Source of the DNA: Fragilaria crotonensis
Taxonomy: Eukaryota; Bacillariophyta; Fragilariophyceae; Fragilariales; Fragilariaceae
DNA length: 64,000 nucleotides
Direction: 5' to 3'
Assembly: GCA_022925895.1 (NCBI GenBank)
Contig: JAKSYS010000013.1
Location: forward strand, 213,354 to 277,353
In this document: positions 28,859 through 54,981 of the stretch, piece after piece
Layout of the letters: the number at the start of each line of letters is the position of its first letter
Numbering within the stretch: the stretch's first letter is position 1
Translations under genes and position numbers: made by a program
The notes under the pieces: generated by a model
Told to the model about the DNA's origin: nothing
Seen by the model: the letters and a program-made list of their open reading frames with translations, nothing else
Database searches by the model: none

Positions 28859-30188
28859 TCATTGGCGGGTGAGATGAGTGATGAAACCAGTCATAATGTT
28901 GAAGAACCTCTCCTTGACGACATTGCTCATGATAAACTCCATCACAAGATGTAGCTGGTGTGCTCCACACCAAATTCGGGTCAACGGGCAAGAATTCGCA
29001 TGCATGGCAGAGGCAAGTCTGGTCACGACGCCCGCAACGCCGCCACCAGTCATATCATGAGCTCCATCAGAAGCGACACCGATCAGACGAATCTTCCAGT
29101 CAGGACAGAGCACGTTTAAAAACTTAGTCACCATGTCAAACATTACTTCTCCTGTGTGCCGATCAAACATTGGAAGGGCGCAACCATGAAGACAGACAAT
29201 TGTACCTTGCTCCTTAACAAATACACGGAAGCGTATGTCAAGATACGATGTACTCTGGTGTGTTGCAGAGTCAAGGGCAAGTGAGAAACCCCAGGAGCGA
29301 CAAAGTATGTCCGAGATATGATGTAAATTGACAGCGCAGGCAACCCTGATATACTTGCTCACATCTTTCCGACAACAATGTCGCAAACATGGGTCACCCA
29401 TCACATCATATGTGCAAGCAATAATTTCTGACATCATTCTAAAGGAAGTGCCACACGATGTGTACCTAAGGGCCAAATTGAAAAGTGTTGCTTTTGATGC
29501 AGGAGGAATCATCACCAAATAGGAATATTGTTGCTCTTCCTCCAGGTTGCGAATGCGCTTAAACAGTTGGAGAGCTTTTGCTTTTGCTGACGCTGCTGCA
29601 TCTCCTTGTTTTTGCCTCAAGGCATTGAGCTCTCGCTCGCCCCCAAATGATAAATCATTGGCATCATCAGCACTCTCCTCGCCATCAGCATCAATAGTAT
29701 CATCAGCTTCATCGGCAGGATTAAAAAACATGTCACCAATGATAACATCAACAATATCCTTCTTTCCAATTTTAAATATAGTAAAGCTGGAAAGACTTGA
29801 TTGTAATGCCTGCCTGCTGCTTTGACGGAGTACTGCAGGAACGAGCCCCCCCCCTGCGGTCATTATTATTACCACCTTGATCGCGAAAAAAGCGTTCACA
29901 TGCATCCTTATCCTTTCGGTCAATGCGCTCGTCATATTGTTCAAATTGGACTGCATGCTGCTTCCGCAAGTGAAGCTCAATATTGTCGTACCGAAATGGT
30001 GCTGACCATCCCTTCACGATGCTAAGTGCCTTCCGTTTGGTGCCAGATCTTTCCTCGCGACCGAAGACGATACAAAAACGGCACTGAAGTCCAATCACTG
30101 CTGTGGTTTTGAGATGTCGTGACGCTATTGTAAGCCCAAACTGAGCATCATTTGACTTCACGTGTGCAGAAGCACGGGACGACGACAT
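28859..30188 (-). pseudogene. hAT-like transposase, truncated, frame break in a C9 run
   Basis: The ATG at 30188 starts MSSSRASAHVKSNDAQFG. A BED-type zinc finger follows (LQCRFC...HLRKQH, about 30090-29950), then a polar stretch with NNNDRRGG. At the run of nine C at 29846-29854 (plus strand) the reading frame changes and continues SSLSSFTIFKIGKKD to the transposase core: LALDSATHQSTSYLDIRFRV, FDRHTGEVMFDMV, GVASDGAHDMTGGGVAGVVTR and IWCGAHQLHLV. These match hAT-like core blocks with first Asp (DSATHQ), second Asp (SDGAHDM) and the CxxH region (CGAHQLH). The C-terminal dimerisation domain is missing: the frame ends at 28859, about 30 bp from repeat R. No terminal repeats were found. Confidence 0.75.
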
Positions 30189-30481
30189 GGTGGCACGTGA
30201 CAATGTTACAACAGCATACAGGTGCAAATGTGCTTCTTTTAGGCAAATTTCAACCACCGATTGATCTTAGGCGCCACGTCAGGGTCTAATTGGGAAGCGG
30301 AGGCGGGAACCCGGGAGATCGCCTCATCGAACCATGCCTGTATGTCATATGACATATGACATATATGCATATATGGTATGTCGTATGTCATATATTTGAT
30401 CCATATATCATATATTTGATCCAAATCGCGAGCAGTGAATCCAAATCGCGAACGCCAGTGAATCCAAATTCGTGCCCTCGT
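30189..30481. promoter_or_regulatory. AT-rich upstream region of DUF6824 gene A1
   Basis: The stretch 30343-30425 is made of overlapping CATATG/ATATG words (catatgacatatgacatata, tcatatatttgatccatata), giving many short palindromes. It precedes the DUF6824 gene A1. A similar but shorter AT-rich stretch precedes copy B1 (33940-34010). Its role as a promoter is inference only. Confidence 0.35.
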
Positions 30482-31477
30482 ATGGACCCTTTTGTAACAA
30501 CAATTTATGTGAGGTATAGGAACAGAGTCGAGGCTCCAACCATGACGTTGATCAAGCCGACAGACATTATGCTTGGACGAGGCTGCACGTGTTACAACAA
30601 CCCAGGCAACAAAGTATTTCGTAAAGTGTTGAAGGAGCACGTAATCCATTACAGGAATCAAGCACTTCGGAGAGAAAAGGCAGCCTTAGTCAAAATGTTG
30701 GTTTCAAAGCTTGAAGCGATGGGTTATCGTTTTCTTCAGCAATCCACAACTGGAACCTATGTTGAAGCGCCTCCTCATCTTGCCGAGAACAAGGTGGCTC
30801 ACTGTCTTCGAGACCTCCGCCTGTCAAATGCTAAGCTTAGGGACGACGTGAATGTACTTTCGAAGAACTTCCGTCCCTTCAATACAGAGCAAACGAACGC
30901 AGACCAGGTCATGCCAGTTATCACTGGGGAGGCACATACCACGAAGGAAATGTGCAACATGGAGTCGAACAACACGGCCGCGATCACCATGGACGTGGAC
31001 CCATATTTACACGGTCTGCCAACAAAGCTACAACTCGATGCCAATTCATTGGTATCCTCCCCGACGAACATGGCTTTTGGATTCAGTTCGGCGCTGCGGG
31101 AATACCCTCTCGCTGACGGAGGAAGGGAGGAAGCGGATCCGTCATCCTTTGCCTATGTGTTTGAAGACGCTTCTGAGCGAGGCGCACATGGATCTCTTTG
31201 CTCCCCTGGCTCTGAGCCCGAACAACAGTTGGAGCATTTAGAACGAAGTTGGAACAACATAACGGATACGTTGTTCCCGGCGACTGTTTCAAAAATGACT
31301 TGTGCAAGTCATCACGCTCACGGTCTGGATTCTGTGGGCGTGGCCTTCAACATGTATGCAGCCGTCTACGGACGGTCTATTGGCAATATCTTTGTTGGCG
31401 ATCCATATCAACCGTTGGAATGCGATGTGGACGATGCGCAGAGCCTTTGCCGCTGGTTCAGTAGGCACCTTTCGTGA
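30482..31477 (+). CDS. DUF6824-domain protein, copy A1 (331 aa)
   Basis: The ATG at 30482 (MDPFVTT) is preferred because the stretch from this ATG to the inner MTLIKPTD differs between copies A1, B1 and B2 by whole codons (60, 51 and 39 bp). Residues about 21-115 form the DUF6824 domain: DIMLGRGCTCYNNPGN, FRKVLKEHVIHYRNQ, REKAALVKMLVSKLEAMGYRFL, then APPHLAENKVAHCLRDLR. The rest is polar and acidic with no known domain, ending RWFSRHLS. The family is widespread in diatoms and is thought to be regulatory or DNA-associated; no function is proven. The domain's basic helices fit nucleic-acid binding, but that is inference. Right after the stop comes the tail of a different paralog (see 31481). 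Confidence 0.85.
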   Translation: MDPFVTTIYVRYRNRVEAPTMTLIKPTDIMLGRGCTCYNNPGNKVFRKVLKEHVIHYRNQALRREKAALVKMLVSKLEAMGYRFLQQSTTGTYVEAPPHLAENKVAHCLRDLRLSNAKLRDDVNVLSKNFRPFNTEQTNADQVMPVITGEAHTTKEMCNMESNNTAAITMDVDPYLHGLPTKLQLDANSLVSSPTNMAFGFSSALREYPLADGGREEADPSSFAYVFEDASERGAHGSLCSPGSEPEQQLEHLERSWNNITDTLFPATVSKMTCASHHAHGLDSVGVAFNMYAAVYGRSIGNIFVGDPYQPLECDVDDAQSLCRWFSRHLS

Positions 31478-31480
31478 TCA

Positions 31481-32645
31481 GTCAGACAACACGGCCGTGA
31501 TCATCCATGGGTGGGCGACTTGAGAGCAGGGATATCAACTCATCGATACAAATGCACTTCCAGGAAGTGCTCTTCACAGATGTTCACAGAAGTCTTCCGA
31601 AATGTAAGTTTAGGTAAGTGGAAGGACACGATAGCCTTTCTCCAGATGAAGTAGAATACTTTATTTGTGTAGGGTCGGTTTTGTAGTATCAAGTGTTTGC
31701 ACAGCGTAGATAGAAAAGGCTTCGATTCTGGGAGCTAGAAAAACATCACGAAAAATGTATCACCACTTCATCACACCATGACAGACAATGATGTAATTCA
31801 TGACAGCATTGTCGTGGCTTCTGAACGAATCGGCCGTTACACTGCTCCGAGGCGGATCCTTCTCATTTGAAACTTGCTATCCACGAAATTGAGACCACAC
31901 ACCACCCAATCCCTAGTTAGAAGATAGAAAACCAAATACATAGATTATGATTCAAGGAGGAACATACTCACGTCCGACGTTGCCAATCTTTTATAGTCTT
32001 AGAGACATCCTTCGCTCTAGCTACGGGTCCTAAAATTGTATGGATGGGCCCATGAATGGGCAGTGTACTCAAAACGATTGACCGGGGTCAATGCAGAGTG
32101 CACTGTCCGCATATCGCCTTCGCTCAGACAATCGTCCAAATGTTTGGCCATACGGCGGCTCGGCCCATTCGAGGTTGTATCGTAACGTTGAGAAACGGAA
32201 ACACGGTGCTGCCGCCTTGTTCGACGTCATTGAAGAACGAACTCGAACGCAAACACGGCGCGAGGTCAACAAGATTGATCTTGGCGAATGTCATTGAAAT
32301 CGCTGTGACGGCGGCAGAACTGGTCCGGTTCGTGTCGTGTCAATCGAAGTTACTCAACCTTCTCGTTTGGGCAGATTCATCGAATTCGCCATTGGATGGG
32401 TCACCTCATGAATCACGTGATCCTCGGCGCAATCAGTTTCGCAGCGGAACATTCTTGCATTGCATGCATTATTGATTTTTGACACAACATTGCCCTGATA
32501 GTCCCGGAGCACGTCAACAGGTATTTTGAGAAGGTTTCTGCTTGTTAGCAAGGACTTGCATATGCCGGCACCTTGTCAGGTGTCAAAAAAATGTCCAACA
32601 GGATCAGCCAGGGTCCATCGGGAATAATGGATCCATCCGGAGCGG
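31481..32645. repeat. Duplicated tail block, unit 1 (contains repeat R copy 2)
   Basis: This block matches 37067-38242 nearly base for base. Its first 140 bp equal the 3' coding end of DUF6824 gene A2 (SDNTAVIIHGW to LPECK), here lying beyond the A1 stop and interrupted. Repeat R copy 2 occupies about 31878-32405. The block runs up to the TA at 32646-32647, which is the undisturbed counterpart of the insertion site at 38241. Confidence 0.85.
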
Positions 32646-33118
32646 TATTCGTGTCTGGATTTGTGGCCAACGCGAAGTCCATCCACTCCCACTTTGCATG
32701 CCTTCGATTCAGCGTCCGCCGATGACGCCAATATCATCACAAGCAAAGCGAAGAAGAAGTGGTCCTTGCGCTCCTTGTCAAGTACTCCGAGCACTACAGC
32801 ATGCTGTTATGCTCCGTCCAATGCCAGAATGAACGGGCTACACGGCAGGTTGTAGTACGAGTGCCTGGTAATCCGGAGTAACAGAGTAACAACACCTGTC
32901 ATAACTCCTCTGCTGGCACTGCTGAGGGAATCCTTGGCTTATGCAAGGGTGTTTGCATTGCCCATGGTTCTGAACTATTCCACTGAAAGTGCAACAACGG
33001 TCTCGATGGGGATGCAAGCACTACTCGTGACTCGTGACTCGTAAGGTGCCAAAATGTACCAAAGGACGGTTCCACCAACAGGAAACGTCCAACTCAAGTA
33101 GGAGAAGGTGGGGCGCCT
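32646..33118. repeat. Duplicated block, unit 1 (partner of 40621-41122)
   Basis: The sequence from TATTCGTGTCTGGATTTGTG to 'ggagaaggtgg' matches 40621-41122 with small indels. No gene is supported; a minus-strand frame at 32576-32794 is mirrored at 40560-41117 but with disruptions, so I treat it as a shadow or relic. Confidence 0.8.
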
Positions 33119-33863: not shown

Positions 33864-34061
33864 CAGTACATACTACTTGTAAAAGGATTCTCTGCCTTAA
33901 ATGTATTAAAAAGTCCAGAATATCCTGAGATCACCATGACATATATAAACAGCAACCACGTTGGTAAAAAGGGTCGTGCTATATCATCTACATATCATAT
34001 AGGCGTATATGTGAACCAAATCGCGCCTATCCAACAGATGAATCCAAATTCGTGCCCTCGC

Positions 34062-35045
34062 ATGGACCCTTACAACAATTTATGTGGTAGGAACAGAGTC
34101 GAGGCTCCAACCATGACGTTGATCCAGCCGACAGACATTATGCTTGGACGAGGCTGCACGTGTTACAACAACCCAGGCAACAAAGTGTTTCGTAAAGTGT
34201 TGAAGGAGCACGTAATCCATTACAGGAATCAAGCACTTCGGAGAGAAAAGGCAGCCTTAGTCAAAATGTTGGTTTCAAAGCTTGAAGCGATGGGTTATCG
34301 TTTTCTTCAGCAATCCTCAACTGGAACCTGGATTGAAGCGCCTCCTCATCTTGCCGAGAACAAGGTGGCTCACTGTCTTCGAGACCTCCGCCTGTCAAAT
34401 GCTGTTTAGGGACGACGTGAATGTACTTCCGAAGAACTTCCGTCCCTTCAATACAGAGCAAACGAACGCAGACCAGGTCATGCCAGTTATCACTGGGGAG
34501 GCACATACCACGAAGGAAATGTGCAGCATGGAGTCGAACAACACGGCCGCGATCACTATGGACGTGGACCCATATTTACACGGTCTGCCAACAAAGCTAC
34601 AGCTCGATGCCAATTCAATGGTATCCTCCCCGACGAACATGGCTTTTGATTCAGTTCGGCGCTGCGGGAATACCCTCTCGCTGACGGAGGAAGGGAGGAA
34701 GCGGATCCGTCATCCTTTGCCTATGTGTTTGAAGACGCTTCCGAGCGAGGCGCACATGGATCTCTATGCTCCCCTGGCTCTGAGCCCGAACAACAGTTGG
34801 AGCATTTAGAACGAAGTTGGAACAACATAACGGATACGTTGTTCCCGGCGACTGTTTCAGAAATGACTTGTGCAAGTCATCACGCTCACGGTCTGGATTC
34901 TGTGGGCGTGGCCTTCAACATGTATGCAGACGTCTACGGACGGTCTATTGGCAATATCTTTGTTGGCGATCCATATCAACCGTTGGAATGCGATGTGGAC
35001 GATGCGCAGAGCCTTTGCCGCTGGTTCAGTAGTCACCTTTCGTGA
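34062..35045 (+). pseudogene. DUF6824-domain gene, copy B1, broken by two indels
   Basis: From the ATG at 34062 the DUF6824 domain is intact (DIMLGRGCTCYNNPGN at about 34136 onward), but after RLSNA the sequence reads GTTTAG where copy A1 has TAAGCTTAG, a net loss of two bases that gives a stop at 34409. A further G is missing in 'gcttttgattcag' at about 34645 (A1 has ttttggattc), which restores the original frame for the last part (34725-35045, ending RWFSSHLS). So 78 codons are read out of frame between the two lesions. The domain itself could still be made as a 115-residue short product. Otherwise it is nearly identical to A1 and B2, so the duplication is recent. Confidence 0.8.
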
Positions 35046-36530
35046 TTGGAACAATGCGGTTTCTATAATAAGTCGAGCGAGCCTTCTGCGAAATTTTTAA
35101 ACAATATAGCAGCAGCTCTTTGTCTGCGACAGCATCGTGTTTCAATGGTCGTCGGTCACCATTGTAGTTGTCTACGGAGTTTTCCCCCGTCGATATCGAC
35201 GGCAAATGAGGAGTCCACAATCCTTTCGCATCCAAAGGATCAGCACGGCATGCATGAAGAGATGAGCATAGTGAATCTGTCGTAATTCCCTTTGTGCAAG
35301 CTCGTCTCCTGTTCGGTCGATTGTGACGGTGGTGGGTTAGAATATTATATGGCATGGTGGATCGTGAGAACCGTGTCGCGAGGGATCGGTTTGGCGGTAG
35401 CAGATGTCAAGAACCAGTCCACACAAGGTTCGTCAGTGTACATAAATCCGGGGGTGGACAATTTGCCTATGCATTGGTGGCATCAAACCACAGTGCAAAC
35501 ATATCCTTCAATGGCACACAGAGCAAAAAAGAGGATTTTGATGAGCTTTTCAATGCTAGGGTAGAAGTACATGTTGGCCAGGTTCATTTCAGACACTGCG
35601 GTTAAAAATGATAACGAAACTTTCATGCCTTTGGAATCCAATCTGGCTTAACCGAATAATGGAGGGAAAATGACTAAAGCGATGTGGCAGGTGCATGTGA
35701 GTACCACTCATGTGTTGCTTTAGTTCCTTTGATTTCTCTGCACCCAACAAGTTGGCCCATTTGGCCAGGTTCATTTCAGCCAGACACTGCTGTTGAGGCT
35801 CATGTGCACCCAGAGCAAAGACGAGGATTGTGTTGAGCTTTTTCAATGCTAGAGAAGTAGTACATGTTCGCCAGGTTCATGTCAGACACTGCTGTTGAGA
35901 ATATAAACCAAACTTTCACGCCTTTGGAGTCCAATCTGGCTTAGCGGAATAATGGAGGATAAACGACTTAAGCGAGGAGGCAGGTGCATGTGAGTACCAC
36001 TCGCTCATGTGTCGCTTTAGTTGCTTTGATTTCCCTGGACCCAACTAGTTGGCCCATCTGTCCAACAAACCTCTCCACTTGCATCAACACCTAAAACTTC
36101 CCAGAATCTGCTTGTCCGCGCAAGTCCCAACAATAATGATGCAGAGCGACCTCATCAATACAAGGCAATTGTGAGAAATGCGGACTCTTTTGGGTAGAAG
36201 TGTGGTCTAGTAGGGCTCCCCTAATGCTGAGATTGTGATGGGAGCAGGGGATGTTTGCAGAGAGTTAATCAAATGAAGCTGGTCCACCGAGTGATGAAGG
36301 TTGCTACTGTCATGCGGTGGTATCTGAACAGAGATGTACCAATGTGGTGCAAAAAATACAGTGAAAAAAGCATTGGAGGCTGTAGCATCAGTCAATGCCA
36401 CAATCATCAATTTGGAGGTAAATAAACTGAACTGATGCACAGAGATAACATTGTCATTGGAAACTGACACAGAAAACAAATGAAAATACAATTGGTGTCT
36501 TCACTACTGGACATCCTTTAACATGCCATT
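35046..36530. repeat. 1.45-kb non-coding module C, copy 1
   Basis: Matches 44116-45585 closely apart from short deletions (for example about 30 bp near 35090). It contains an inner tandem duplication of about 295 bp: 'caatgctag-gtagaagtacatgtt-gccaggttcat' occurs at about 35548 and 35845, and 'ccaatctggctta-c-gaataatggagg' at about 35638 and 35930. Small frames (for example 35292-35564, identical to 44330-44602) are copied in both modules, but they lack domains. Confidence 0.8.
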
Positions 36531-36652: not shown

Positions 36653-37207
36653 ATGACTTCGATCCAGCCGAAGGAAATAATGCTTGGTCAAGGCTCAACG
36701 TGCTACAACAACCCAGGCAACAAGGCATTTCGCAAGGTGATCAAGAAGCACGTGATCTATTACAAGAATCAAGCCAGTCGGAAGGAAAAGGCCGCATTAG
36801 TTAAGTGGCTTGTTTCCAAGCTTACAGCGAAGGGCTATCGTTTTCTTCAGCAATCCACAACTGGAACCTATGTTGAAGCGCCTCCTCGACTTGCCGAGAA
36901 TAAGGTGGCTCACAGTCTTCGAGACGCTAGAATTGAGGCTGCTAAAATCCGCTGCGACAGCAATGTTGTTCCGCAGGACTTTCTCCCCGATAGCACAGAG
37001 CTAAAGCGCAGACGACAAAACAAGCCAGACATCACTTGGGAGGAAGAAACCAAAGAGGAAATGATCTGCAGTCAGTCAGACAACACGGCCGTGATCATCC
37101 ATGGGTGGGTTGAGAGCAGGGATATCAACTCATCGATACAAATGCACTTCCAGGAAGTGCTCTTCACAGATGTTCACAGAAGTCTTCCGGAATGTAAGTT
37201 ATGGTAA
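36653..37207 (+). CDS. DUF6824-domain protein, copy A2 (short, 184 aa)
   Basis: ATG at 36653 starts directly at the domain: MTSIQPKEIMLGQGSTCYNN, FRKVIKKHVIYYKNQASR, KEKAALVKWLVSKLTAKGYR, then APPRLAENKVAHSLRDAR. It differs from the A1/B copies at many residues, so it is the older, divergent paralog. After the domain comes a short basic/acidic tail (ELKRRRQNKPDITWEEETKEE) and SDNTAVIIHGWVESRD to LPECKLW. The last part is in-frame here, while in unit 1 the same sequence lies after the A1 stop. The gene may therefore represent the ancestral layout. No lesion is seen, and the length is about half that of A1. Confidence 0.8.
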   Translation: MTSIQPKEIMLGQGSTCYNNPGNKAFRKVIKKHVIYYKNQASRKEKAALVKWLVSKLTAKGYRFLQQSTTGTYVEAPPRLAENKVAHSLRDARIEAAKIRCDSNVVPQDFLPDSTELKRRRQNKPDITWEEETKEEMICSQSDNTAVIIHGWVESRDINSSIQMHFQEVLFTDVHRSLPECKLW

Positions 37208-38242
37208 GTGGAAGGACACGATAGCCTTTCTCCAGATAAAGAAGAATACTCTATTTGTGTAGGGTCGGTTTTGTAGTATCAAGTGTTTGCACAGCGTAGA
37301 TAGAAAAGGCTTCAATTCTGGGAGCTAGAAAAAACATCACGAATAATGCATCACCACTTCATCACACCATGACAGACAATGACGTAGTAATTCATGACAG
37401 CATTCTTGTCGTGGCTTCTGAACGAATTGTCCCTTACACTGCTCCGAAGGCAGATCCTTCATATTTGAAACTTGCCAACCACAAAATCAAGACCACCCAC
37501 CACCCAATCCCTAGTTAGCTAGAAGAAAGAAAACCAACTACATAGATTATGATTAAAGGAGGAACATGCTCACGTCCAACGTTGCCAATCTTCTATAGTC
37601 TTAGGGACATCCTTCGCTGTACGGGTCCTAAAATTGTTTGGATGGGCCCATGAATTGGCATTGAACTCAAAACCATTGACCGGGTTCAATGCAGAGTGCA
37701 CTGTCCGCTCATCCTCTTTGCTCAAACGATCGTCCCAAACGTTGACCATACGGCGGCTCGGCCCATTCGAGGTTGTATCGTAACGTTGAGAAACGGAAAC
37801 ACGGTGCTGCCGCCTTGTTCGACGTCGTTGAAGAACACAAACACGAACACGGCGCGAGGTCAACAAGATTGATCTTGGCGAATGTCATTGAAATCGCTGT
37901 GACGGCGGCAGAACTGGTCCGGTTCGTGTCGTGTCAATCGAAGTTACTCAACGTTCTCGTTTGGGCAGATTCATCGAATTCGCCATGCGATGGGTCACCT
38001 CATGAATCACGTGATCCTCGGCGCAATCAGTTTCGCAGCGGATCATTCTTGCGTTGCAGGCATTTGTTGATTTTTGACACAACATTGCCCCGATAGTCCC
38101 GGAACACGTAAACAGGTATTTTGAGAAGGTTTCTGCTTGTTAGCAAGGACTTGCATATGCCGGCACCTCGCCAGGTGTCAAAAAATTGTCCATCAGGATC
38201 AGCCAGGGTCCATCGGGAATAATGGATCCATCCGGAGCGGTA
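37067..38242. repeat. Duplicated tail block, unit 2 (contains repeat R copy 3)
   Basis: Partner of 31481-32645. It includes the 3' end of gene A2, a non-coding stretch and repeat R copy 3 (about 37484-38003). It stops at the TA at 38241-38242, where the 2.38-kb insertion begins. Confidence 0.85.
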
Positions 38243-40620
38243 CCTCGGAACGTTGCGGGTTTTACACCCATGCATAGACACTACACTTTGGTACAATATT
38301 GTGACATTTTGATACACTGATGTGGAGCAATTTTTTACAATGTGGATAAACTTGTAGTATATTTCCATTCATCAATATACCATTGTTCCAATTTTTTGAA
38401 ATGAGGCACATGTATAGTCTGGTTAATAAAACACATTTCACATCGGTACCCCAAGATGATGCTGCCGCCTGCACACACTTTCACATCAGTACCCCACAAC
38501 GATGTTCCAATTTCTCACATTTCACACCATGTCTATTCAAAGACAATACACCTGCCTGCACGTTTTGAAGATGTTGTCGCCATTTTTTGACATGAATGCT
38601 ACCGTGGTACATTTGCTTGATCACTGGATTGCTTATTGTGTTTTAATGCAAAATGTTCTGCCTATCAAGCATGCACACTCATAGCTTTATTACGATGCTA
38701 AATTTCCTGATTGACTATCAATCGCCTCTGAATGGAGAGCGCCTTCATGTACATTTCAAAGCTTCACGTCCAATCACCAACTCCTCTAAATGGAGAGTGG
38801 CTTCACGTCCAATCACCACCTCTAATGGAGAGTGGCTTCACGTACATTTCAAAGCTTTATGTCCAATCACCACCTCTAATGGAGAGTGGCTTCACGTCCG
38901 TTCACCACCTCTATATGGAGAGTGGCTTCACGTCCGATCGCCACCTCTAATGGAGAGTGGCTTCACGTACGTATCAAAACTTCGTGCCAGATGATTGTTG
39001 TTTCTGGATTCGAACCCTTAGACTCCTTATGTGCTACCGGTAGTCACTCTTCCTATGCTCATGATGTGAACACAGGTGTAAATTAAGGTATGAAAACCCT
39101 TGAAGTGCACAACCATTGTGATCAAGCGCATCCAATGGAAGATGCTGAATGAATAAAATGGCAGCAAGAACAATTCGTCCCATCTGCGTCAGTAAGGCTA
39201 CAAATATGCTGCACACAGTTAGTCAATATTATTAGTAGCTACATGTAAGAAGGAAAGATAATCAATATTGGATATTGTATATATTTCTTGAAGTACATTA
39301 AGTTTATAAATTTTTAGAGTGAGTAAGCCAACGTATTCCTGCTGAAATATTGAGAGCCATTTGCTACTAGTACTATCAAAGTAGTCACAAATGAGATTTT
39401 GAATACTTAACCAACAGTCCGTTTAAAACTGCAAAAAACAATGGAAATCATCATTGACGAATAAGAAAGACATTCAAAAAATTGTCAACGGTTGACAATC
39501 ATGGTGCAATCCCGTAAGAACCCAACACAAGAACACAAAACAAGCAAGCGAGAGGAGATTACAAATTACAAAACGAGAATCATAGTTGCGAGTTGGGAGA
39601 CAGCAAATAAATGCAAACTTAAAGCATAAGAGTGTGGTGGTCGCAACAAACAAGGTAAGCAAATAAAAGGGCAAAAAGAACGTAAGCAACCATGAGAAAC
39701 AACAGCGACTGGACAAAACTCAGTTCAACTGAATGGTCTAATCGTAAATTTCCTTGACAGGGCAGGAAACCAAAAGTCCAGCAGGGAGAAATGACGAGAA
39801 GCAAGTCTCCATTTGAGGTGGTCAAGCAGGAAATTGTGCACCACCCTGCACGGTGAGCAACAAGCAACCCAAAATCCACGGCATTGCCACTCTCCATTAG
39901 TAGAGTTGGTGATCGGGCATGAAGCCTTCTCCATTAGAGGTGCCGCATCAAACTGTCTGTTGGAGGTGGCAATCAGGAGTGCTGGAGCCATTCTTTTTTA
40001 AGAGGTGCTGTCTGAACAGGATATTGAGCATCAATGTACTTGTTCTTGCCAAGAAGTCAACTGAAATCCTTTGGATCATTGCTCTCCATTTAGAGGTGAT
40101 TATCCGGTGCAATGTGACTCTTCATTACAAGTCGTCAACTGGCAGGATGCCACAGATACCACGATTGCCAAGGAGCAAGTAGTTGCCGCTCTGCATTCAG
40201 TTGTAGCAGATGAGGTGCTGGTTGGTGAGCAAGACACTGCAATGATCAACGAGAAGGATATGCCAAAGAAATGAAATTTTCTTCTAGAACACAGTTATAG
40301 TAGTATCATATGGCACAGCAAACCAACTAGTACTACGAGAGTAGATTGGCACCATCTGAAGGTATCACAGTGTATTATTTGTGTGCGCGTGTTACATTAA
40401 TGTCACAGCAAAACATATATATGAAACAGGAACAAAGATATGACACGGTGTACAATTGTTGTGACAACGATGTACATTTGGTAGTATGCAAATGCTATTA
40501 TGTCAAGGTGTACAAAAAATTGGTACAGTAAAAAAGCACGGTACAAAAGTGTTCCGGACTCAAAAAAATATTTTACAGGTATCAACAAACGGTAGGTGTA
40601 CAACCCGGAACCCTCTGAGG
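38243..40620. mobile_element. 2,378-bp non-autonomous DNA transposon with TIRs and TA duplication
   Basis: The element interrupts the duplicated block between 'gagcggTA' and 'TAttcgtg'; unit 1 has one TA at 32646-32647 in the same place, giving a clear empty site. The left end 38243-38270 begins CCTCGGAACGTTGCGGGTTT, and the right end 40593-40620 read in reverse begins CCTCAGAGGGTTCCGGGTTG; 22 of 28 positions agree. Subterminal sequence is rich in 'ggtaca-ttgtga' words on both sides. Inner repeats of GGAGAGTGGCTTCACGT at the left and their reverse at the right (GCCACTCTCCATTAG) form a second inverted layer. Frames inside (for example 39474-39991 minus) show no transposase motif. A TA duplication fits Tc1/mariner-like or similar families; the class is unproven. 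Confidence 0.9.
38731..38975. repeat. GGAGAGTGGCTTCACGTCC tandem repeats (left subterminal)
   Basis: Six or seven copies of a 35-bp unit (AATGGAGAGTGGCTTCACGT plus CCAATCACCACCTCT), some extended to about 62 bp by 'acatttcaaagctt'. The reverse-complement version, less regular, lies at about 39885-40105 ('ctctccattagaggtg', 'ctctccatttagaggtg'). Together they look like long subterminal inverted repeats of the TA-flanked element. Confidence 0.8.
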
Positions 40621-41122
40621 TATTCGTGTCTGGATTTGTGGCCAACGAGAAGTCCATCCACTCCCACTTTGCATGCCTTCGATTCAGCATCCGCCGATGA
40701 CGCCAATATCATCACAAGCAAAGCGAAGACGAAGTGGTCCTTGCGCTCCTTGTCAAGTACTGGAGTACTCCGAGTACTACAGCATGCTGTTATGCTCAGT
40801 TCTAATGCCAGAATGAACGGGCTACACGGCAGGTTGTTGTCCGAGTCCGAGTGTGCCTGCTGGTAATCCAGAGTAACAGAGTAACAACACCTGTCATAAC
40901 TCCTCTGCTGGCACTGCTGAGGGAATCCTTGGCTTATGCAAGGGTGTTTCCTGCCATCAAGATGCAACTTGCATTGCCCTTGGTTCTGAACTATTCCACT
41001 GTTAAAGTGCAACAACGGTCTCGATGGGGATGCAATCACTACTCGTGACTCGTGAGGTGCCAAATGTACCATAGGTAGGTTCCACCAACCAGTACGGGAA
41101 GGCAACGTCCAACTCAAGAAGG
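40621..41122. repeat. Duplicated block, unit 2 (partner of 32646-33113)
   Basis: Resumes the block interrupted by the insertion. It differs from unit 1 by small insertions, such as 'actggagtactcc' near 40760 and 'cctgccatcaagatgcaa' near 40950. No gene is supported. Confidence 0.8.
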
Positions 41123-41414
41123 AGAAGGTGGAGACCAGCGCCCCATTGGGTTAAGTTCTTGGCATGGCTCGGCACTACTGTGCCCGAATATTCCATGGAT
41201 GTCACTTTAACGTATGCATACATCGTACTGTACTTCGGATATGATTTTAACTCCAGTAATGATCCTACTGCGCCGCAACCTTACGACGTACAAGTAGCAT
41301 AGAGCTCGACTATGTACAGTAGTCGACAAACTGAGATAAACGCTGTTCGATTTGTCGGAATATAAGTATAGGTACCGCAGTTGTATGCATAGTAAGGTAT
41401 GCACATAGATCATC

Positions 41415-42987: not shown

Positions 42988-43140
42988 ACTTGTACCAGGT
43001 ACCAGTAGTTGTATAAGGCATTCGCTGCCTTAAATGGATTAAAAAGTCCATACGTGCTTTGTCATGTGTGTGATCGTGTTTCCCAATTCGCGAACAGTGA
43101 ATCCAAATCGCGAACAGTGAATCCAAATTCGTGCCCTCGT

Positions 43141-44115
43141 ATGGACCCTTACAACAATTTCAGAGTCGAGGCTCCAACGATGACGTTGATCAAGCCGACA
43201 GACATTATGCTTGGACGAGGCTCCACGTGTTACAACAACCCAGGCAACAAAGTGTTTCGTAAAGTGTTGAAGGAGCACGTAATCCATTACAGGAATCAAG
43301 CACTTCGGAGAGAAAAGGCAGCCTTAGTCAAAATGTTGGTTTCAAAGCTTGGAGCAATGGGTTATCGTTTTCTCCAGCAATCCTCAACTGGAACCTGGAT
43401 TGAAGCGCCTCCTCATATCGCCGAGAACAAGGTGGGTCACGGACTTCGAGACCTCCGCCTGTCAAATGCTAAGCTTAGGGACGACGTGAATGTACTTCCG
43501 AAGAACTTCCGTCCCTTCAATACAGAGCAAACGAACGCAGACCAGGTCATGCCAGTTATCACTGGGGAGGCACATACCACGGAGGAAATGTGCAGCATGG
43601 AGTCAGACAACACGGCCGCGATCACTATGGACGTGGACCCATATTTACACGGTCCGCCAACAAAGCTACAGCTCGATGCCAATTCATTGGTATCCTCCCC
43701 GACGAACATGGCTTTTGGATTCAGTTCGGCGCTGCGGGAATACCCTCTCGCTGACGGAGGAAGGGAGGAAGCGGATCCGTCATCCTTTGCCTATGTGTTT
43801 GAAGACGCTTCCGAGCGAGGCGCACATGGATCTCTTTGCTCCCCCGGCTCTGAGCCCGAACAACAGTTGGAGCATTTAGAACGAGGTTGGAACAACATAA
43901 CGGATACGTTGTTCCCGGCGACTGTTTCAGAAATGACTTGTGCAAGTCATCACGCTCACGGTCTGGATTCTGTGGGCGTGGCTTTCAACATGTATGCAGA
44001 CGTCTACGGTCGGTCTATTGGCAATATCTTTGTTGGCGATCCATATCAACCATCGGGGTGCGATGTGGACGATGCGCAGAGCCTTTGCCGCTGGTTCAGT
44101 AGTCACCTTTCGTGA
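43141..44115 (+). CDS. DUF6824-domain protein, copy B2 (324 aa)
   Basis: The ATG at 43141 (MDPYNNF) gives a continuous 325-codon frame, the intact partner of broken copy B1. The DUF6824 domain starts DIMLGRGSTCYNNPGN and ends APPHIAENKVGHGLRDLR. Small changes from A1 are scattered (E to G in LGAMGYR, CHCL to GHGL, W for Y in GTWIEAP), all as single substitutions, so the copy looks functional. The C-terminal part is nearly the same as in A1 and ends RWFSSHLS. Its upstream region (42990-43140) is short and follows the small foldback element. Function is unknown; nucleic-acid binding is only a guess from the basic helices. Confidence 0.85.
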   Translation: MDPYNNFRVEAPTMTLIKPTDIMLGRGSTCYNNPGNKVFRKVLKEHVIHYRNQALRREKAALVKMLVSKLGAMGYRFLQQSSTGTWIEAPPHIAENKVGHGLRDLRLSNAKLRDDVNVLPKNFRPFNTEQTNADQVMPVITGEAHTTEEMCSMESDNTAAITMDVDPYLHGPPTKLQLDANSLVSSPTNMAFGFSSALREYPLADGGREEADPSSFAYVFEDASERGAHGSLCSPGSEPEQQLEHLERGWNNITDTLFPATVSEMTCASHHAHGLDSVGVAFNMYADVYGRSIGNIFVGDPYQPSGCDVDDAQSLCRWFSSHLS

Positions 44116-47968: not shown

Positions 47969-50140
47969 ATGGCACAGCAGCATCCACTCTTCAATCCCCG
48001 TGAGTCGGCACCCGGCAGTTATCGGGAGCTCTACATGACAGCGGGGTACCAGAAAGGGGGACCGGTCCCGGCGCGCCTGATGGCCAGTTATCGGTTCACC
48101 GAGGCACTAGGCGGGGGCGAACGTCCGACACCCGCCAATCTCAAGGAACAAACCCTCGCACTCAGCGAGAGGCGTCCAGTCGCGTTTCTGTGCTTGTACC
48201 GCAAGACAGGTGCAACCAACGTAGAAGTGCGTATCCTCCATAGGATGTTGCGCTACTACGAACTACCTGGGGACAAAGCTGGTGGGGAGGCGGCGGACCT
48301 CAGCATGGGCCTACTCGGGGAAGTCCGAGCGGCACAGATTCCGGTGGTAGAGGTTGACAACTCGCTGTTCTCACTTATTGGAGGAGCGATTAGAGTTCCT
48401 ACAGTAGCCGTCATGCCGGAACTTCTGGCGCAGCGCCACCGGGCAGCTACCTAGGACCTTACGGAGCCGATGTCCCGGGCACCGAGCTCGTGCGCACCCG
48501 GGTAACCAGTAATCCCGACAAGTACGCCGCTGCATTGGTGCACCGGGATGGGGTTGCACCAGCAACGGCGTACCAGGAGCTTGCGGGCATGTTGGAAGCT
48601 GACGGCACAACGGAGGCGTGCGCTGACGTGCTCACCTGGCTTCGTGTCGCATGTACCGCAAGAGGAGGCGCGGGGGAGTTGGCAGCGATGCCAGCGGTGG
48701 CACAAGTCTTCACCTTGTTGCTGCTGCCAGACACTGTTAGCGACTACGTAACCAGTAAAGTGGCTGCTGGGGACCTTCCTGGTGGCCGCCAGCCACGAGG
48801 GCAGTCGGGGCCTGCCTGGGACCAGATGGTCCAAGCGGTGCAGCAGTTAGCCACAACCACAGCAGGAGGAGGGCGCGAGCAGCGCGAGCCAAAAGGCATC
48901 GCAGAGGCCTACCGCGAGACCTTTCCTGTGCTGCTCCGTTACTGTCAGGTGCAGACGGTGGATGAAGTGGCACCAATTTGGAAGCGCCTTTCCACCGGAA
49001 CGAAAGGCGAGCAGCAATCCATAATTCAGTAAGAGATGACTTGAGTGTGTGGAGGGCGGGGACTCACACAAGACTTGTACTGCCCTGTCGTGACAACGAA
49101 TTTGAAGCAGATGATCGCCAGCCTCAACTTCGCCAGTAACGGACCTGACGATCTAACCGCAGGGTGCCAGCCATTTCTGGTGGCCTATACAGGACGAGCA
49201 AACGACCACTATTGAGCACTGGATCACGCCATGGTGGCAAATCAGTTGGAGCAAGAAGGAACTGCGAATGCCACCCTCGCTGACATACGGGACATTCGTG
49301 ACAAGGAGAAGGTCAAGATGCCCCAGGATCTTCACCAGGTAAGCCTGGCGCTCCAACGTTACGCAGTCCTGGTGCACACCCTCTTCCAAGGGCCTGGGGA
49401 GCCCAATCCTTTTGTCCGGCGGTGCATGTGGCACTTAGCTAGCACGTACCATGAGCGGCTCCCCCACTTCCTTTCGCAGCATCAGACCCTCGCCGGCACG
49501 CCATGGGGTGAGATCTATCCGGCCCATGTCATCCGCAACGTGCAGATTCACGTTTATGAATACCTCCAAGCATTGCAGATCGGCGGAGTCCGCGACGGTG
49601 ATGGCACCATAGCGTTACCCTCCTTCCACGAGCTCCTCCGTGATTATCAGCGGGGCTCCTTTCACATGTCGCCGTCCTGGCTCCCCCGCCTCCCGGCCGG
49701 CGAGTGTCACAATGGACCCAGCGGTAACACTACTACCATTGTCGGGGGGAGGCAACACGGTGGGGACTCGCTCGACGCGAGCATCGATCGCGTCCACGAA
49801 GTCCGGACTCACGACAGCAGCCAGCGGCGGGCGCGCAGGCACGACCGCCACGGCGCAGAGTCGTACGTACGTAGCCAATACAGCACGCGACGCCGAGTTC
49901 GATGCCTTGCAGCTTTGCCCCCAAATGCGCGAGCTCCTGCGGGCGCATCCGCCTCCCGCAAAAGATTCAGGTAACGAGTTCTGTGTCTCGTGGTGGGGCC
50001 GTGGCGGCTGTTACACCAATTGTGGTCGAGCTGCCACGCATCGCTCCTTCGCAAATAGTGCAGCGCGGGGTCGACTGCTTGCACATGTCCGCGCGCATTT
50101 AGTGGCAGCACCGACGCAGTCACCCGCCGCTAACACTTGA
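47969..50140 (+). pseudogene. DIRS-like element: gag-like region, frameshifted
   Basis: The ATG at 47969 starts MAQQHPLFNPRESAPGSYRE. The frame changes near 48440 to continue as GSYLGPYGADVPGTELVRTR up to 49032, then again to 49231-49640 (MVANQLEQEGTANATLADIR) and 49640-50140. The last piece holds a Cys/His motif (FCVSWWGRGGCYTNCGRAAT followed by H) of the kind found near the end of gag-like ORFs in DIRS-type elements of algae and fungi. The whole region is much richer in G+C than its surroundings, a sign of a foreign or recently arrived element. Three or more frame changes make this copy inactive as written. Confidence 0.65.
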
Positions 50141-50346
50141 CGGGTAGGCCAGGAGGGATCAGTTGCAGCTTCTGCGGATGCTCCCTGGCTACGACGCGCT
50201 CCGCCTTGGGCCAGCGACACTGATGGCAGCGAGGAGCGCACACCCAAACGGGCACGAGTAGGAACACGCCTCGGCCTCACACAGGCCGAGGCCACATTAC
50301 GTAAGTATGCATTGCACGCAGCATCTAAATTAGAACAACTTGGCGA

Positions 50347-52314
50347 TTGGCAGACCTTTGTACGACACGAGCGGCGACGAGCAGGCCAGACATTGGGCCC
50401 GGTGTGGCAAACCTGCCGCACAAGGCAGCCCGACTCATGGATCATCTTCGCCGCCGCGGAGCAGGAGTGCCTTTTTGCACCGGCCCGTGGACGGCCGACC
50501 AACTACGGTCGGCGGCGCGCAGGGGGTCGCACCGGCTCTCTACCCTATTTGCATTAAACGCAAAATTTGACAGTATCTCATACAGCACGGTACTGTAGAC
50601 ATTTGTGTACAGTACCATGGTTTAATGCATATTGGCATACTTTCATGCGTATTGGGTATTTATTCGGTCGCACCGGTCGGCCAAGAACGAAGTCGAGTTC
50701 GTCTGTCGGGAGATGCTGGAGTTCTGCGAACAAGGGTTCTGGACGGTCCTCCCCCTAGAGACGGCACTCACGCTCCGCACACTTGCGACTCTCACCACTT
50801 GGCGTGGTCCCACAACGCAACCGCCGCCCCCGGCTCATTGTGGATTACACCTTCTCAGGTGTCAACCCAGAGACATCACGGCTGGCACCCCACGAAGCCA
50901 TGCAATTCGGGAGGGCGTTGTCCCGCATGCTCGCCAGAATTGTCCACGCCGACCCCCGCTACGGGCCGGTGTACCTTGCAAAGTTTGACATCGCGGACGG
51001 CTTCTATCGTATCAGTCTCCGCCCGTACGACATACCCCGCTTGGGTGTGGTCCTCCCATCCACAACAGATAACCCAGTGGTTGCGCTCCCGTTGGCCTTG
51101 CCTATGGGTTGGGTGGAAAGCCCGCCTTATTACACCGCTGTGACCGAGACAGCCTGTGATCTACTCAACACCGTCCTGCGGCGCCACGTGGAATTTCCCC
51201 CACATCGACTTGAGGATCTGGCGGCCACGTTACCCTCGGACGCTACGCCCTTGACTGGTGCGCGGTGGCAAGGCTTGGCCTGCACAGGAGGCTCAGCGTG
51301 TCAGCCCCTGCCACCGGTCGCTTACGGCGACGTCTATGTTGACGCCTTCATATTAACGGCGCAGACGAAGCGCCATCAACAGCGTGTCTTGCGTGCTGTG
51401 CTGCACTCGATCGATACCCTGCTCCGCCCGCTGGACACCCAAGATCGAGCTAGTCGCAAGGAGCCCGTGTCCGTTAAGAAGCTGCGGCAAGGCGATGCGT
51501 GCTGGCTGACAAGCAAGACAGTGGCTGTTGGGTTGGGATCTTGTTGACACCGTCGCGGGCACCCTCCCGCAGCACCGACGAGACCGCCTCTACGAGCTTC
51601 TTGATTCCTTCCTTCCACACGACGTCGTATGCCACGCCCGACTGGCGCAGACTCTAGGCGAGCTGCGCCGATGGCGATCGCGCTGCCCGGCGCACGTGGT
51701 ATGTTCTCCTAACTACAGGACGCCTTTCGAGGAGACGACAGCACGCGTGTCCGCCTGACCCGCCGCGTCTTTGATAGCCTCGCGGATTTCGGGCACTTGC
51801 GGACTCCATCCGCGATCGGCCCACGCGCTTCCGCGAAGTGGTTCCAGTTGGGGCGCCTGTGGCCCACGGAGCATGTGACGCTTGTCGCCACGGTATGGGC
51901 GGAGTTTGGTTCCTTGCTTCCGGTGCGCCTGTTGTTTGGCGCGCACCCTTCCCACTCTCGATTCAGAACCGACTCGTCACTAGCGATAATCGGCAGGGCA
52001 CCGTCTCCATTTCCGATTTGGAGTTGGCTGGCACGCTGGCGCATAAAGACATCTTGGCACGCCTCACTTGCGTTGCCGAATGCCCAATTTGGTTGGCCGG
52101 CGATAATCGCGCTTCCCTTTCATGGGCCACCAAAGGTTCCTCGACCGCCACTACTGCCCGTGCCTATTTGCTTCGGCTCAGCGCCCTGCATCAACGTCAT
52201 TTTCGCTACGTTTCGTCCCACGACTTTATCGCCGGGAAGGCTAGCGTAATGGCAGACGACGCCAGTCGACGCTGGGACTTAACGGATGCTGATCTTGTCT
52301 CTCGCTCCCTTTAA
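50347..52314 (+). pseudogene. DIRS-like element: reverse transcriptase and RNase H
   Basis: The N-terminal part has VPFCTGPWTADQLRSAARRG, is interrupted by a 130-bp insertion (50536-50665), and resumes SAKNEVEFVCREMLEFCEQG. After a frame change near 50780 the RT core follows: LRLSPLGVVPQRN, RPRLIVDYTFSGVN, YLAKFDIADGFYRI, LPMGWVESPPYY and GDVYVDAFIL (about 51330-51355). The catalytic box should read YVDD; here the second Asp is Ala. RNase H lies at 51838-52314: ACDACRHGMGGVWF, ISDLELAGTLAHKDIL, LAGDNRASLSW and MADDASRRWDL, which keep all four acidic positions. This RT type (with GVNxET) and the neighbouring recombinase identify a DIRS-like element. Confidence 0.75.
50536..50665. mobile_element. 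130-bp palindromic insertion with 11-bp target duplication
   Basis: The 11-mer GGTCGCACCGG occurs at 50525-50535 and again at 50666-50676, bracketing an AT-rich 130-bp segment inside a GC-rich coding region. Without the insert the protein reads AARRGSHR-SAKNEVEF, as the family expects. The insert ends are imperfect inverted repeats (TACCCTATTTGCATTAAA versus TACCCAATACGCATGAAA), and its middle is a hairpin (GGTACTGTA...TACAGTACC). The 11-bp duplication fits a Mutator-like miniature element; that class is inference. Confidence 0.8.
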
Positions 52315-52329
52315 TTCTACCTATCCCCA

Positions 52330-53612
52330 GATCACCTCTTGGCAACTACTGCACCTCCATTCAGAGACGCTCTCAGCGGTGACTGGCGCGCTGTTATGTC
52401 GGCGTTGCATTCCCACCAGTCTACGCATTGACGGGATTCCGCCTCCGCCACCTGGCGTATCTGGGAGCGCTTCTGCGCCAACCTTGGCATCCAAGCGGAC
52501 CTTTGCGACGTTCCCCACGACCCCGCCCCTATCCTTCTCCTCTTTGCACAGCAGTACCGAACCGGCCGCATTGCCCCCGGCGACCGGCCTTTAGGTCTCG
52601 CACAGTGGAAGCAAGACGCCCTCCGTCATGTGGCGCAGACGTTCACCCGGCTGGGGGCCGTGGACCCTCGCATGAACGCCTTCGGGGCCTTGGATTTTTG
52701 CCTCCAAGCCCTTTTCAAAGCGTGGAAGCGTACCGATCCCCCGGCCCTCCGGTCAAACCGTTGCCAATGTCAGTGGTGCGCCAGGCCTGCCAATTGGCCA
52801 CCGCGCAGCCACCGGCGTCTCGTCTTGCCGCCGCGGGCGATTGCCTCCTCCTGGCCTATTATTTCCTTCTCCGCCCTGGCGAGGAGTACAGCGGCCTGTC
52901 CCGTACAACGGCTGACGACCTCTTCCGCCTGCAGGATACAGGCATCTGGATTGGCCACCGGCGCCTTGATCCCCTCACATGTCCCGTCGCCGATCTCCTT
53001 GCCGCGTCGTTCGTCACCATTACTTTCACATCCCAAAAGAATGGGGTTCGCGGTGAAACACTTGGTGGTCACGGCCGCAGCGGCCACCCCACTCTCTGCC
53101 CGGTCCACACGCTTATCTGTCGCGTGTGCCATCTTCGCCACAGCGGCGCCACCGGCACGACAGCACCTCTCAATGCCTTCCGTCCGACGCCACACGCCTG
53201 GCAATTCGTCCTTGCCGCCGACATTACGTCCCTCCTGTGTCGGGCGGTTGCACTTCTACCACCGCACCTGACCGACTTTGCTGCGCACGACATCTCCGCT
53301 CGCTCCACTCGCGCGGGTGGTGCCATGGCCATGCTGTGCGGCGGCATCGACTCCGACCGCATACGCCTCATTGGCCGCTGGCGGTCTGATGAAATGTTCC
53401 GCTACTTACATGTGGAGGCTCAGCCTGTGATGGCGGGCGTCGCCGCCACGATGCTTCGCGGCGGCGCCTTTCCGCCTCAACGCCCCACCCTCACCGACCA
53501 TGCCCCATGGTCGCCCACCCTTTCCAGCACCCCTGGCCCCAAGGGCCGAGGAAGCGCCACCACCGGTACACAAGTAACGGTGCCTGCTTCCGACGGTAGA
53601 CGTGTGCGGTAG
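52330..53612 (+). CDS. DIRS-like element: tyrosine recombinase
   Basis: The useful part of the frame begins near 52600. It shows LLLAYYFLLRPGEEYSGL (box with the first Arg), a core with ITFTSQKNGVRGE and HPTLCPVHTLICR, then FAAHDISARSTRAGGAMAML (His and second Arg), LIGRWRSDEMFRYLHVEA (Trp and the likely nucleophile Tyr). These are the conserved residues of tyrosine recombinases as found in DIRS-type retroelements, where this enzyme replaces the integrase. The 394-codon frame is open from 52428, but the first 60 or so residues (Arg/Pro-rich) look like an off-frame reading, with the real N-terminus in a neighbouring frame. End at 53612. Terminal split repeats of the element were not found. Confidence 0.75.
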
Positions 53613-54981
53613 CATAGTAAGGGCGCCGCACCGCCAACCTTTAGTATATACCAGACTGGATATGTGCGGCCCAAGGCCGCGTTGATTTTGTCGGGATGTT
53701 TACAGTCTTCAGTTTAATCTGGGCTACTGGCGGAGTTTATTGTTGTACTGATAGTGTGGTTGTTTCAGTAGTAGTATCGGGTCTACCTGTGAAATGTCGC
53801 TGCATTGTAAGATAAACATTGCTGAGCATTGGAATCTGGAATTCAAAATACATTTTCCAGTATTTCTAGACAGATCAAACAAACTGGATATGGCATTAAC
53901 GGAGTACTTGTACATAAAATTGTTGTCCTTTCTACACAACGATTTGTACCACGTTATACAATATTCATTGCTGCACACAGTGAAACATTTCTTCCGTGTA
54001 GGTTTCTACTGAAAAATTTGTACCATGTACTTTTCTACCGCAAATGCTACGTCAGTAAGTGGATTAAAAAATAAAAATATACGATTACTTTTGAAAATAC
54101 AGTACGACATATCTGAGTTATTTTATTTTATAATATAATAAATCACACAAACCTACTCCGACGGGCAGTCACGTAGGTGGAGAACCTGTCGGAAGCGGGA
54201 GGATCCCGCTGATACTGTACTCCAATGTCATACTTGTACTCCATGTATGGGGTGAAGATATTTCACGTGACTGCCGTATCTTGCTGCGTGCGTACGTTCC
54301 GTAGCAAACCCTACGGTAATTTATGCATACAGTATCAACTGTGATCGGACCTCTTTCCTGGTTTCTGATTTCTGAGGACATCCTGAAACGATACTCCTTG
54401 GAATATGTGACGTAGACACTACCAAAGGCAATACGGACTTTCCAGATGTCCAATACTCCAAGACTTCTTGCTGGTTTGTCCGTGACTCAAATGTTGTGTG
54501 GTCAATGAGTCGTTGTTCGTCCAACAGTACGCATGAAATTGTGCAACTGTAGCGTCCGTTGAGTTGTTTTGGAAGCTGGATGCCGACATGCGTATGAGGA
54601 AAAAATATGTACAGCACACATAATATGCATAGAACAATTCTATCCAATAATAATGGAAATAATAGTGGAACGACTGCAATCGTGCGTGTAGGACAGACGC
54701 ACAGGCGCCAATATAATCAAAACCATTCAATTTTTTGCCAATGTGTCAAAATGTCAGTGACCATGTGACACGACGACACGATTCATCCACTTACACCGAT
54801 CACAAGGCTCGCGACTCGCGAATCTCTGCGCTTGGATCAGGAATCTTCTCGTGTCAAACGTCAAGCACATAGACACAAGCGACGCTCTCACTCACGAGAT
54901 ATATAGTCGTTTGTTCTTGGAGCAAGTGTGCCTGTACTAGTACCAAGTCTTTTACTCCAACAGTGCAACAGAGAACAGAGA
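53613..54981. other. Intergenic; no supported gene
   Basis: The first 120 bp may be the 3' end of the DIRS-like element (GC-rich up to about 53690). From 53700 to 54150 the sequence is AT-rich. Frames at 54169-54730 (minus) and 53724-54074 show no domain. Nothing else is recognised before the first exon of the phosphodiesterase gene. Confidence 0.4.

Follow-up and report, generated by a model that had tools for sequence, protein, structure and literature searches.

The window analyzed here, a 64,000-nucleotide stretch of the Fragilaria crotonensis genome (assembly GCA_022925895.1, contig JAKSYS010000013.1, positions 213,354 to 277,353 of the forward strand), contains a duplicated unit, the second copy of which (unit 2) carries an element of 2378 bp at 38243–40620 (plus strand). 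The element is bordered by the dinucleotide TA at 38241–38242 on the left and at 40621–40622 on the right, both read directly from the sequence, and the corresponding position in unit 1 is an empty site with a single TA at 32646–32647. The duplicated block extends to the left of the site over 31478–32647 and 37072–38242 (92.6% identity) and to the right over 32644–33111 and 40619–41131 (85.8% identity). Alignment of unit 1 with the joined unit 2 flanks (400 bp on each side) gave 731 identities, 25 mismatches, and 47 internal gapped positions, with no gap at the junction, and no footprint is visible at the unit 1 site, where one TA is left. A sequence-only reading of this DNA had described both the TA-flanked element and the unit 1 flanks joined over one TA; direct reading bears out the former, and reading together with the ungapped junction alignment bears out the latter. 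The element is a discrete and real insertion, and the clean pair of filled and empty sites fixes the duplication and the ends to the base.

Further copies of the unit were found in the same genome with a query of 800 bases spanning the empty site (TA at query positions 400–401). Besides both units of the window, four copies matched, two each on contigs C869 and C53 (C869:111775–112188, C869:115743–116130, C53:91313–91726, and C53:81003–81390), and all four are free of the element. Their matches cover query positions 8 to 420 or 40 to 421, i.e. they continue 19–20 bases past the site, beyond which the match breaks and picks up at query position 422 some 200 or 790–870 bases on. It may be that C869 and C53 represent the same region in two versions, and the element-free copies are therefore counted as at least two independent ones. 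Because unit 1 and the C869 and C53 copies lack the element, the filled state is the derived one, and because these four other copies are unbroken through the site, the difference is one of insertion and not of loss. The same copies, together with unit 1, uphold the earlier claim that insertion followed the duplication of the unit.

The element ends in inverted repeats of 28 bp, CCTCGGAACGTTGCGGGTTTTACACCCA on the left (38243–38270, plus strand) and CCTCAGAGGGTTCCGGGTTGTACACCTA on the right (40593–40620, minus strand), which match at 22 of 28 positions as had been read originally (binomial P ~4e-9). When 200,000 random pairs of 28-mers with the same spacing were drawn from the window, two reached 22 matches and none exceeded it, the sampled range including the true position, which may account for both. 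GTACA/TGTAC motifs were counted in the left (38243–38492) and right (40371–40620) subterminal regions, both on the plus strand, and these two terminal 250-bp stretches hold 11 hits, mostly on the right side of the element, versus 6 in the intervening 1878 bp (TGTACA being counted twice); single-base shuffles gave a mean of 1.0, and none of 5000 reached 11. The last 123–139 bp are the best conserved part of the element, at 84–89% against transposase-bearing and other relatives. Two arrays of 35-bp tandem repeats (2.2 and 3 copies) occupy 38761–38972 on the plus strand, and inverted copies lie dispersed over the right side; the folding of the tandem-repeat stretch as single-stranded DNA is somewhat better than that of its shuffles (z = −2.45), from which no conclusion is drawn. 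No viral likeness was seen among the matches of the element in its own genome or among its protein matches, although the element itself was not searched against viruses.

Relatives of the element were sought across the 62.1-Mb genome, where all search counts are lower bounds. At least 61 scored matches to the whole element were found, five of them on the contig of the window (the element itself and its inner repeats). None of the long matches is close: C168 and C550 match at 72% over element positions 557–2378, and the closest left half, on C594, matches at 79% over bases 1–402, with colinear pieces to 2014. Over the first 30 bases of the left end, 26 to 28 are identical in C218, C321, C168, C372, and C24 (26 in both C218 and C321) and 23 in C124, the sixth contig compared. 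At the right end, all 30 bases are identical in C218, C321, and C168, of which C218 and C321 bear a transposase gene, and the ungapped comparison gives 23 of 30 for C372, 22 for C124, and 20 for C24. Left and right ends face one another ~11.87 kb apart on C218 and C321, 14.4 or 5.8 kb apart on C168, and 5.8 kb apart on C550. A pattern search for the ends with at most two mismatches returned 84 matches; the reversed control returned 2. Most frequent among the ends are CCTCRGA, the type of the window subfamily, and CATCRGA/CATCACA; the sister subfamilies carry the ends CATCAGAA, CATCACAA, and CATCGGAA, and their termini are CA..TG, where those of the window subfamily are CC..GG. Transposase-bearing relatives with the same ends, for which the sequence-only reading had advised a genome search, do exist, at ~12 kb (e.g. 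C218 and C321), and the recurrence of the ends disfavors the chance structure that an absence of other copies was said to imply. As an observation apart, C168 has two left ends (C168:53226 and C168:61892) that lie 8.7 kb from each other, point the same way, and adjoin an identical 20-base flank, for one right end, perhaps through a duplication or an assembly join. Inside the C168 element, two open frames of 1214 and 967 amino acids (L015:1164–4808 and 5076–7979, minus strand) look, by eye, like a non-long terminal repeat retrotransposon (endonuclease plus reverse transcriptase, and a first frame).

Target-site duplications were compared between ends that face each other within 16 kb; there are 25 such pairs, 0.75 to 14.4 kb apart, 24 of them from the pattern search and one on C24, the right end of which came from another end search. 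The flanking dinucleotides match in 22 of the 25 pairs, against a mean of 5.8 and a maximum of 14 in 20,000 shuffles. Some flanks are shared (the C111/C209 and C168/C550 pairs), and collapsing three such pairs leaves 19 of 22 matched. The 22 matched duplications are TA in nine cases, TT in five, TG in three, AA in two, and AG, CA, and CC in one each; the end pattern slightly disfavors G in first and C in second place, so that such sites are under-counted. TA flanks more ends than any other dinucleotide (31 of 85), yet the family is not TA-specific, because 13 of the 22 matched duplications are other than TA, and it thereby departs from the invariable TA of Tc1/mariner and other TA-specific elements. 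The term "TA-inserting" thus describes the window element but not a rule of its family. Copies without a TA duplication, offered beforehand as a sign of a chance structure, do occur, but most have another matching 2-bp duplication, which speaks against TA specificity and not against the element.

The ~12-kb relatives encode a family of transposases. With the 510-residue open stretch of the C218 element as query, at least 98 matches were obtained, which merge into 78 loci, and stop-free frames of ~1160–1190 residues occur at several places, C134, C829, C529, and C1:86971–88461 among them. A search of the genome with the Pfam profile for Plavaka (PF18759) gave 92 places; the best 71 of these were compared, all 71 score above the curated cut-off, and 31 of them fall on loci of the transposase family, the window element itself encoding no protein. 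In the open 1151-residue stretch on C134 (L059), residues assigned by eye are Asp418 in AIDKTTCD, Asp540 in FIIGDTEGHD, a CxxC at 562–565 in LCRVC, an HxxxH at 802–806 in MHLVLH, and Glu826 in AYAES, exactly 20 residues past the second histidine. RAG1 has the same spacing from histidine to glutamate. The block around the first aspartate is present in every transposase row read except one frame of L034, and the HxxxH and glutamate are present in every row that covers them; the second aspartate and CxxC were seen in C134, C218, and C129, with the reading frame shifted at this point in C321 and C770. The set is complete in L059 and is present in pieces, over several frames, in C218 (L010) and C129 (L022/L023). 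A DDE triad with C(2)C and H(3-4)H is given for the CMC (CACTA/EnSpm-Mirage-Chapaev) group (PMC12730594), and both motifs were recognized, by eye and from the published description, between the second aspartate and the glutamate of the partner transposase, as in CMC/CMCT elements. Searches with the transposase in Pfam, NCBIfam, PHROGs, and the PDB gave only weak unrelated matches or none, and as a single protein it had no useful relatives among viral contigs. A genome search with the PF02992 profile found nothing, its control being silent as well.

The assignment as Plavaka-type draws on the transposases encoded by ~12-kb relatives with the same ends, a family that has the CMC motifs and coincides with PF18759 places. 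We consider it highly likely that the window element belongs to a Plavaka-type family within the CMC group and is a non-autonomous transposon of the cut-and-paste kind, moved in trans by the transposase of its ~12-kb relatives. The end sequence, which the sequence-only reading could not place in a known family, is now tied to a named kind of transposon, as both CCTCRGA and CATCRGA/CATCACA ends flank elements with such a transposase. That reading had also concluded that an element without a transposase of its own needs a partner elsewhere, and the ~12-kb relatives provide the candidate; on the whole, its observation is confirmed and its interpretation partly supported. Mechanistically, transposase made by relatives elsewhere in the genome would bind the ends and the subterminal GTACA motifs of the window element and excise it, and rejoining at a 2-bp staggered cut, followed by fill-in, would yield the 2-bp duplication, here TA. 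Entry into unit 2 would have come after the unit was duplicated, and the element itself is probably an internal deletion product of a full element. As such it is an ordinary kind of element, newly assigned, and its three-gene relatives are of greater interest.

A number of observations weigh against this assignment. Among the best 71 of the 92 PF18759 places, 40 lie on loci other than those of the transposase family, and the matches on transposase loci are partial, falling mostly at positions ~39–170 of a model with 325. Neither the C134 transposase (L059; hmmscan limit E 10) nor the C218 piece (limit E 1) matches PF18759, so the assignment runs through members with ~40–60% identity to the latter. 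In the elements whose ends are nearest (C218, C321, C770, C129, and C482), the transposase copies are split between frames or interrupted by stops, introns not being excluded, while stop-free frames lie on other contigs. Three pairs of ends (C122, C24, and C770) have unmatched flanks, and the window subfamily begins with CC, unlike the CA of most of the group. No recognizable gene is present in the window element, within which remnants of the transposase and of the second gene of the relatives (ORF2, for open reading frame 2, see below) were sought and not found. Finally, the closest left half, on C594, adjoins a different transposase lineage, and no right end was found for it in the part of the contig available, the best 25-base comparison having 9 mismatches.

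This second lineage is found on C30, C487, C518, C356, C471, and C43, among other contigs, and at several loci ORF2 lies next to it in convergent orientation, as on C594, where part of the lineage lies at 29330–29881; its distant matches lie in frames that hold PF18759 places, e.g. a 969-residue frame on C5. Together, the position of the closest left half and these shared PF18759 frames make the second lineage the most serious competitor for the role of mobilizer, in place of the transposase of the ~12-kb elements. The end search, however, lists no ends on any of these first six contigs, although diverged ends could escape a limit of two mismatches, and the C594 copy, for which no right end was found, could be a shortened window-like element lying next to an unrelated one; mobilization by the second lineage is accordingly rated unlikely. 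The TA on both sides of the window element, and the prevalence of TA among the flanks, would also suit a TA-specific element such as Tc1/mariner, PHISTA, or ESTA, and in rust fungi ESTA, an EnSpm-like kind of element, makes TA duplications (PMC12730594). Strict choice of TA was nevertheless rejected on the matched TG/TG, TT/TT, AA/AA, AG/AG, CA/CA, and CC/CC pairs, which make up 13 of 22, and with the partner transposase family coinciding with PF18759 matches, such an element is very improbable.

Cut-and-paste elements can also leave a site, though rarely with precision, and an element older than the duplication that was precisely lost from unit 1 would produce the same filled and empty pair. 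Against this stand the unit copies on C869 and C53, at least two of them independent, which continue through the site without the element, and the single TA without footprint in unit 1; loss was rejected on these grounds and has little probability left. Least probable by far is a chance structure or an assembly artifact. The draft does seem to hold duplicated contigs, and the two left ends on C168 share a flank, but the ends, the duplications, and the gene order are all found again on many contigs. We therefore retain the Plavaka-type element mobilized by its ~12-kb relatives as the preferred interpretation.

Where their genes were found, the relatives are built to a nearly constant plan, with the left end followed by the transposase gene pointing rightward, ORF2 pointing leftward, ORF3 pointing rightward, and the right end. 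An ORF2 query from the C594 copy gave at least 94 matches, merging into 71 loci; four rows of the table of 94 are fragments of loci already present and were left out of the gene-order count. ORF2 lies within 10 kb of 29 of the 78 transposase loci and is downstream and on the opposite strand in 28 of these 29, the exception being C317. The remaining 49 transposase loci are without ORF2 within 10 kb, and 42 ORF2 loci are without such a partner, some of them beside the second lineage. ORF3, searched with a query from C321, gave at least 158 matches, from which second fragments, along with some weak rows, were left out; at 58 of the 78 transposase loci it follows on the same strand, less than 16 kb downstream, and it is never placed otherwise and was not found among the matches listed at the other 20, which may include misses. 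At 29 of 29 right ends it points toward the end from a distance of 396 to 861 bases, and as these ends were picked on contigs with an ORF3 match, they inform on distance and direction and not on frequency. The recurrence of this layout, with ORF2 running against the transposase and ORF3 a short way in from the right end, is the wider point of the comparison. In the window element, a stretch of 63 bp (40074–40136, plus strand) matches the ORF3 coding region of the ~12-kb relatives (81% in DNA, E 2.6e-7) and is a possible remnant of it; the corresponding protein match is weak, with 19 residues (E 0.001) in a repetitive, HSPFRG-rich stretch.

Searches of ORF2 and ORF3 in Pfam, NCBIfam, PHROGs, and the PDB found no family, with weak unrelated matches or none, and no useful relatives of ORF2 were found among viral contigs, prokaryote genomes, and phages. 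The open forms of ORF2 on C594 and C321 (44–46% identical) both keep THYDVNDASQGF; by eye, they show HYD, then after ~62 residues DGR.IRHGTS, and an arginine 7–8 residues on, and a third copy, on C129, loses its frame after QGF. A downstream arginine at such a spacing is a feature of 2-oxoglutarate/Fe(II)-dependent (2OG-Fe(II)) oxygenases. The HxD...H triad of these enzymes is described in PMC12730594, and the HxD...H...R layout of ORF2, as seen in two sequences, is a lead only. A profile search of the PDB with ORF2 found no oxygenase. The TET/JBP model PF12851 matched no place in the genome at a limit of E 10, with a weak control (1 of 14 control genomes matched, none over the cut-off), and ORF2 gave no match to it in the Pfam searches. 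The genome has 13 cytosine methylase matches above the cut-off, which may lie in host genes or in elements. Some fungal transposons, Plavaka included, carry TET/JBP-like genes, and their link to CMD1 by HHpred is only at E 1.4 (PMC12730594). It is conceivable, though we would not expect it, that the relatives form a three-gene algal branch of Plavaka in which ORF2 is an unrecognized 2OG-Fe(II) oxygenase that acts on methylated DNA and shields the elements from silencing, with gene-less elements riding along. On the same tentative footing, ORF2 would parallel the TET/JBP genes of fungal Plavaka and be too divergent for the TET/JBP model. If ORF2 were a DNA-oxidizing enzyme, this would be a second eukaryotic branch in which transposons carry an anti-silencing enzyme.

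Among known systems, the family is most usefully compared with PlavakaB of fungi, by description and without a tree. Plavaka termini are TGT..ACA in the A form and CATCA..TGATG in the B form, with duplications of 2 or 3 bp for PlavakaB (PMC12730594). Shared with PlavakaB are the Pfam Plavaka matches of the partner family, the CATC termini of the sister subfamilies, and duplications of 2 bp (22 of 25 pairs here), whereas the CCTC start of the window subfamily and ORF3 as a third recurrent gene differ. Some of the fungal elements carry a dioxygenase gene, reported to be of the HxE type (PMC12730594); ORF2 shows HxD instead and is unrecognized by the TET/JBP model. Subterminal repeats are typical of CACTA, and the window element has them; the partner transposase shares the DDE, C(2)C, and H(3-4)H motifs of EnSpm/CACTA, but the window subfamily lacks CAC..GTG ends. 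Some CACTA elements make 2-bp duplications (PMC6004678), while EnSpm of rust fungi makes 3-bp duplications in contrast to the 2 bp of this family (PMC12730594). Termini of 5'-CA..TG-3' are given for the CMC/CMCT group "in most cases" (PMC12730594), i.e. as usual and not obligatory; the sister subfamilies have them and the window subfamily, with CC..GG, does not. ESTA of rust fungi, compared by its description in PMC12730594, is alike in being EnSpm-like and in its TA duplication, and unlike in that duplications in the present family are not limited to TA; it also carries a dioxygenase gene. No paper on a diatom Plavaka was among the matches listed, with subscription papers and Repbase outside the scope, which does not show the family to be undescribed. 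Outside fungi, Plavaka is reported as giant repeats in Amoebidium (PMC11244446) and as EnSpm-Plavaka in a green alga, Auxenochlorella (PMC12633428), both likened to the present family by description only and in their occurrence beyond fungi.

Matches to C5 DNA methylase (PF00145, 65–67 bits) at C541:2533–3699 and C826:11753–12919 lie ~4.5 kb inside end-like strings TACCTCAAATGCTTNCGGGTT (2 mismatches), and perhaps represent a transposon of a related end type that carries a methylase. Within the window, the G+C content of 48001–54000 is 0.58–0.61, versus ~0.46 around it, and the five open frames in or at the edge of this region, as well as 49231–49974, have no Pfam match. Genes with a Pfam match to DUF6824, a domain that would fit a diatom, stand on either side of the duplicated units, at 30356–31477 and 43009–44115, and a third DUF6824-like stretch lies at 34035–35046, all three being 94–97% identical to one another in DNA.

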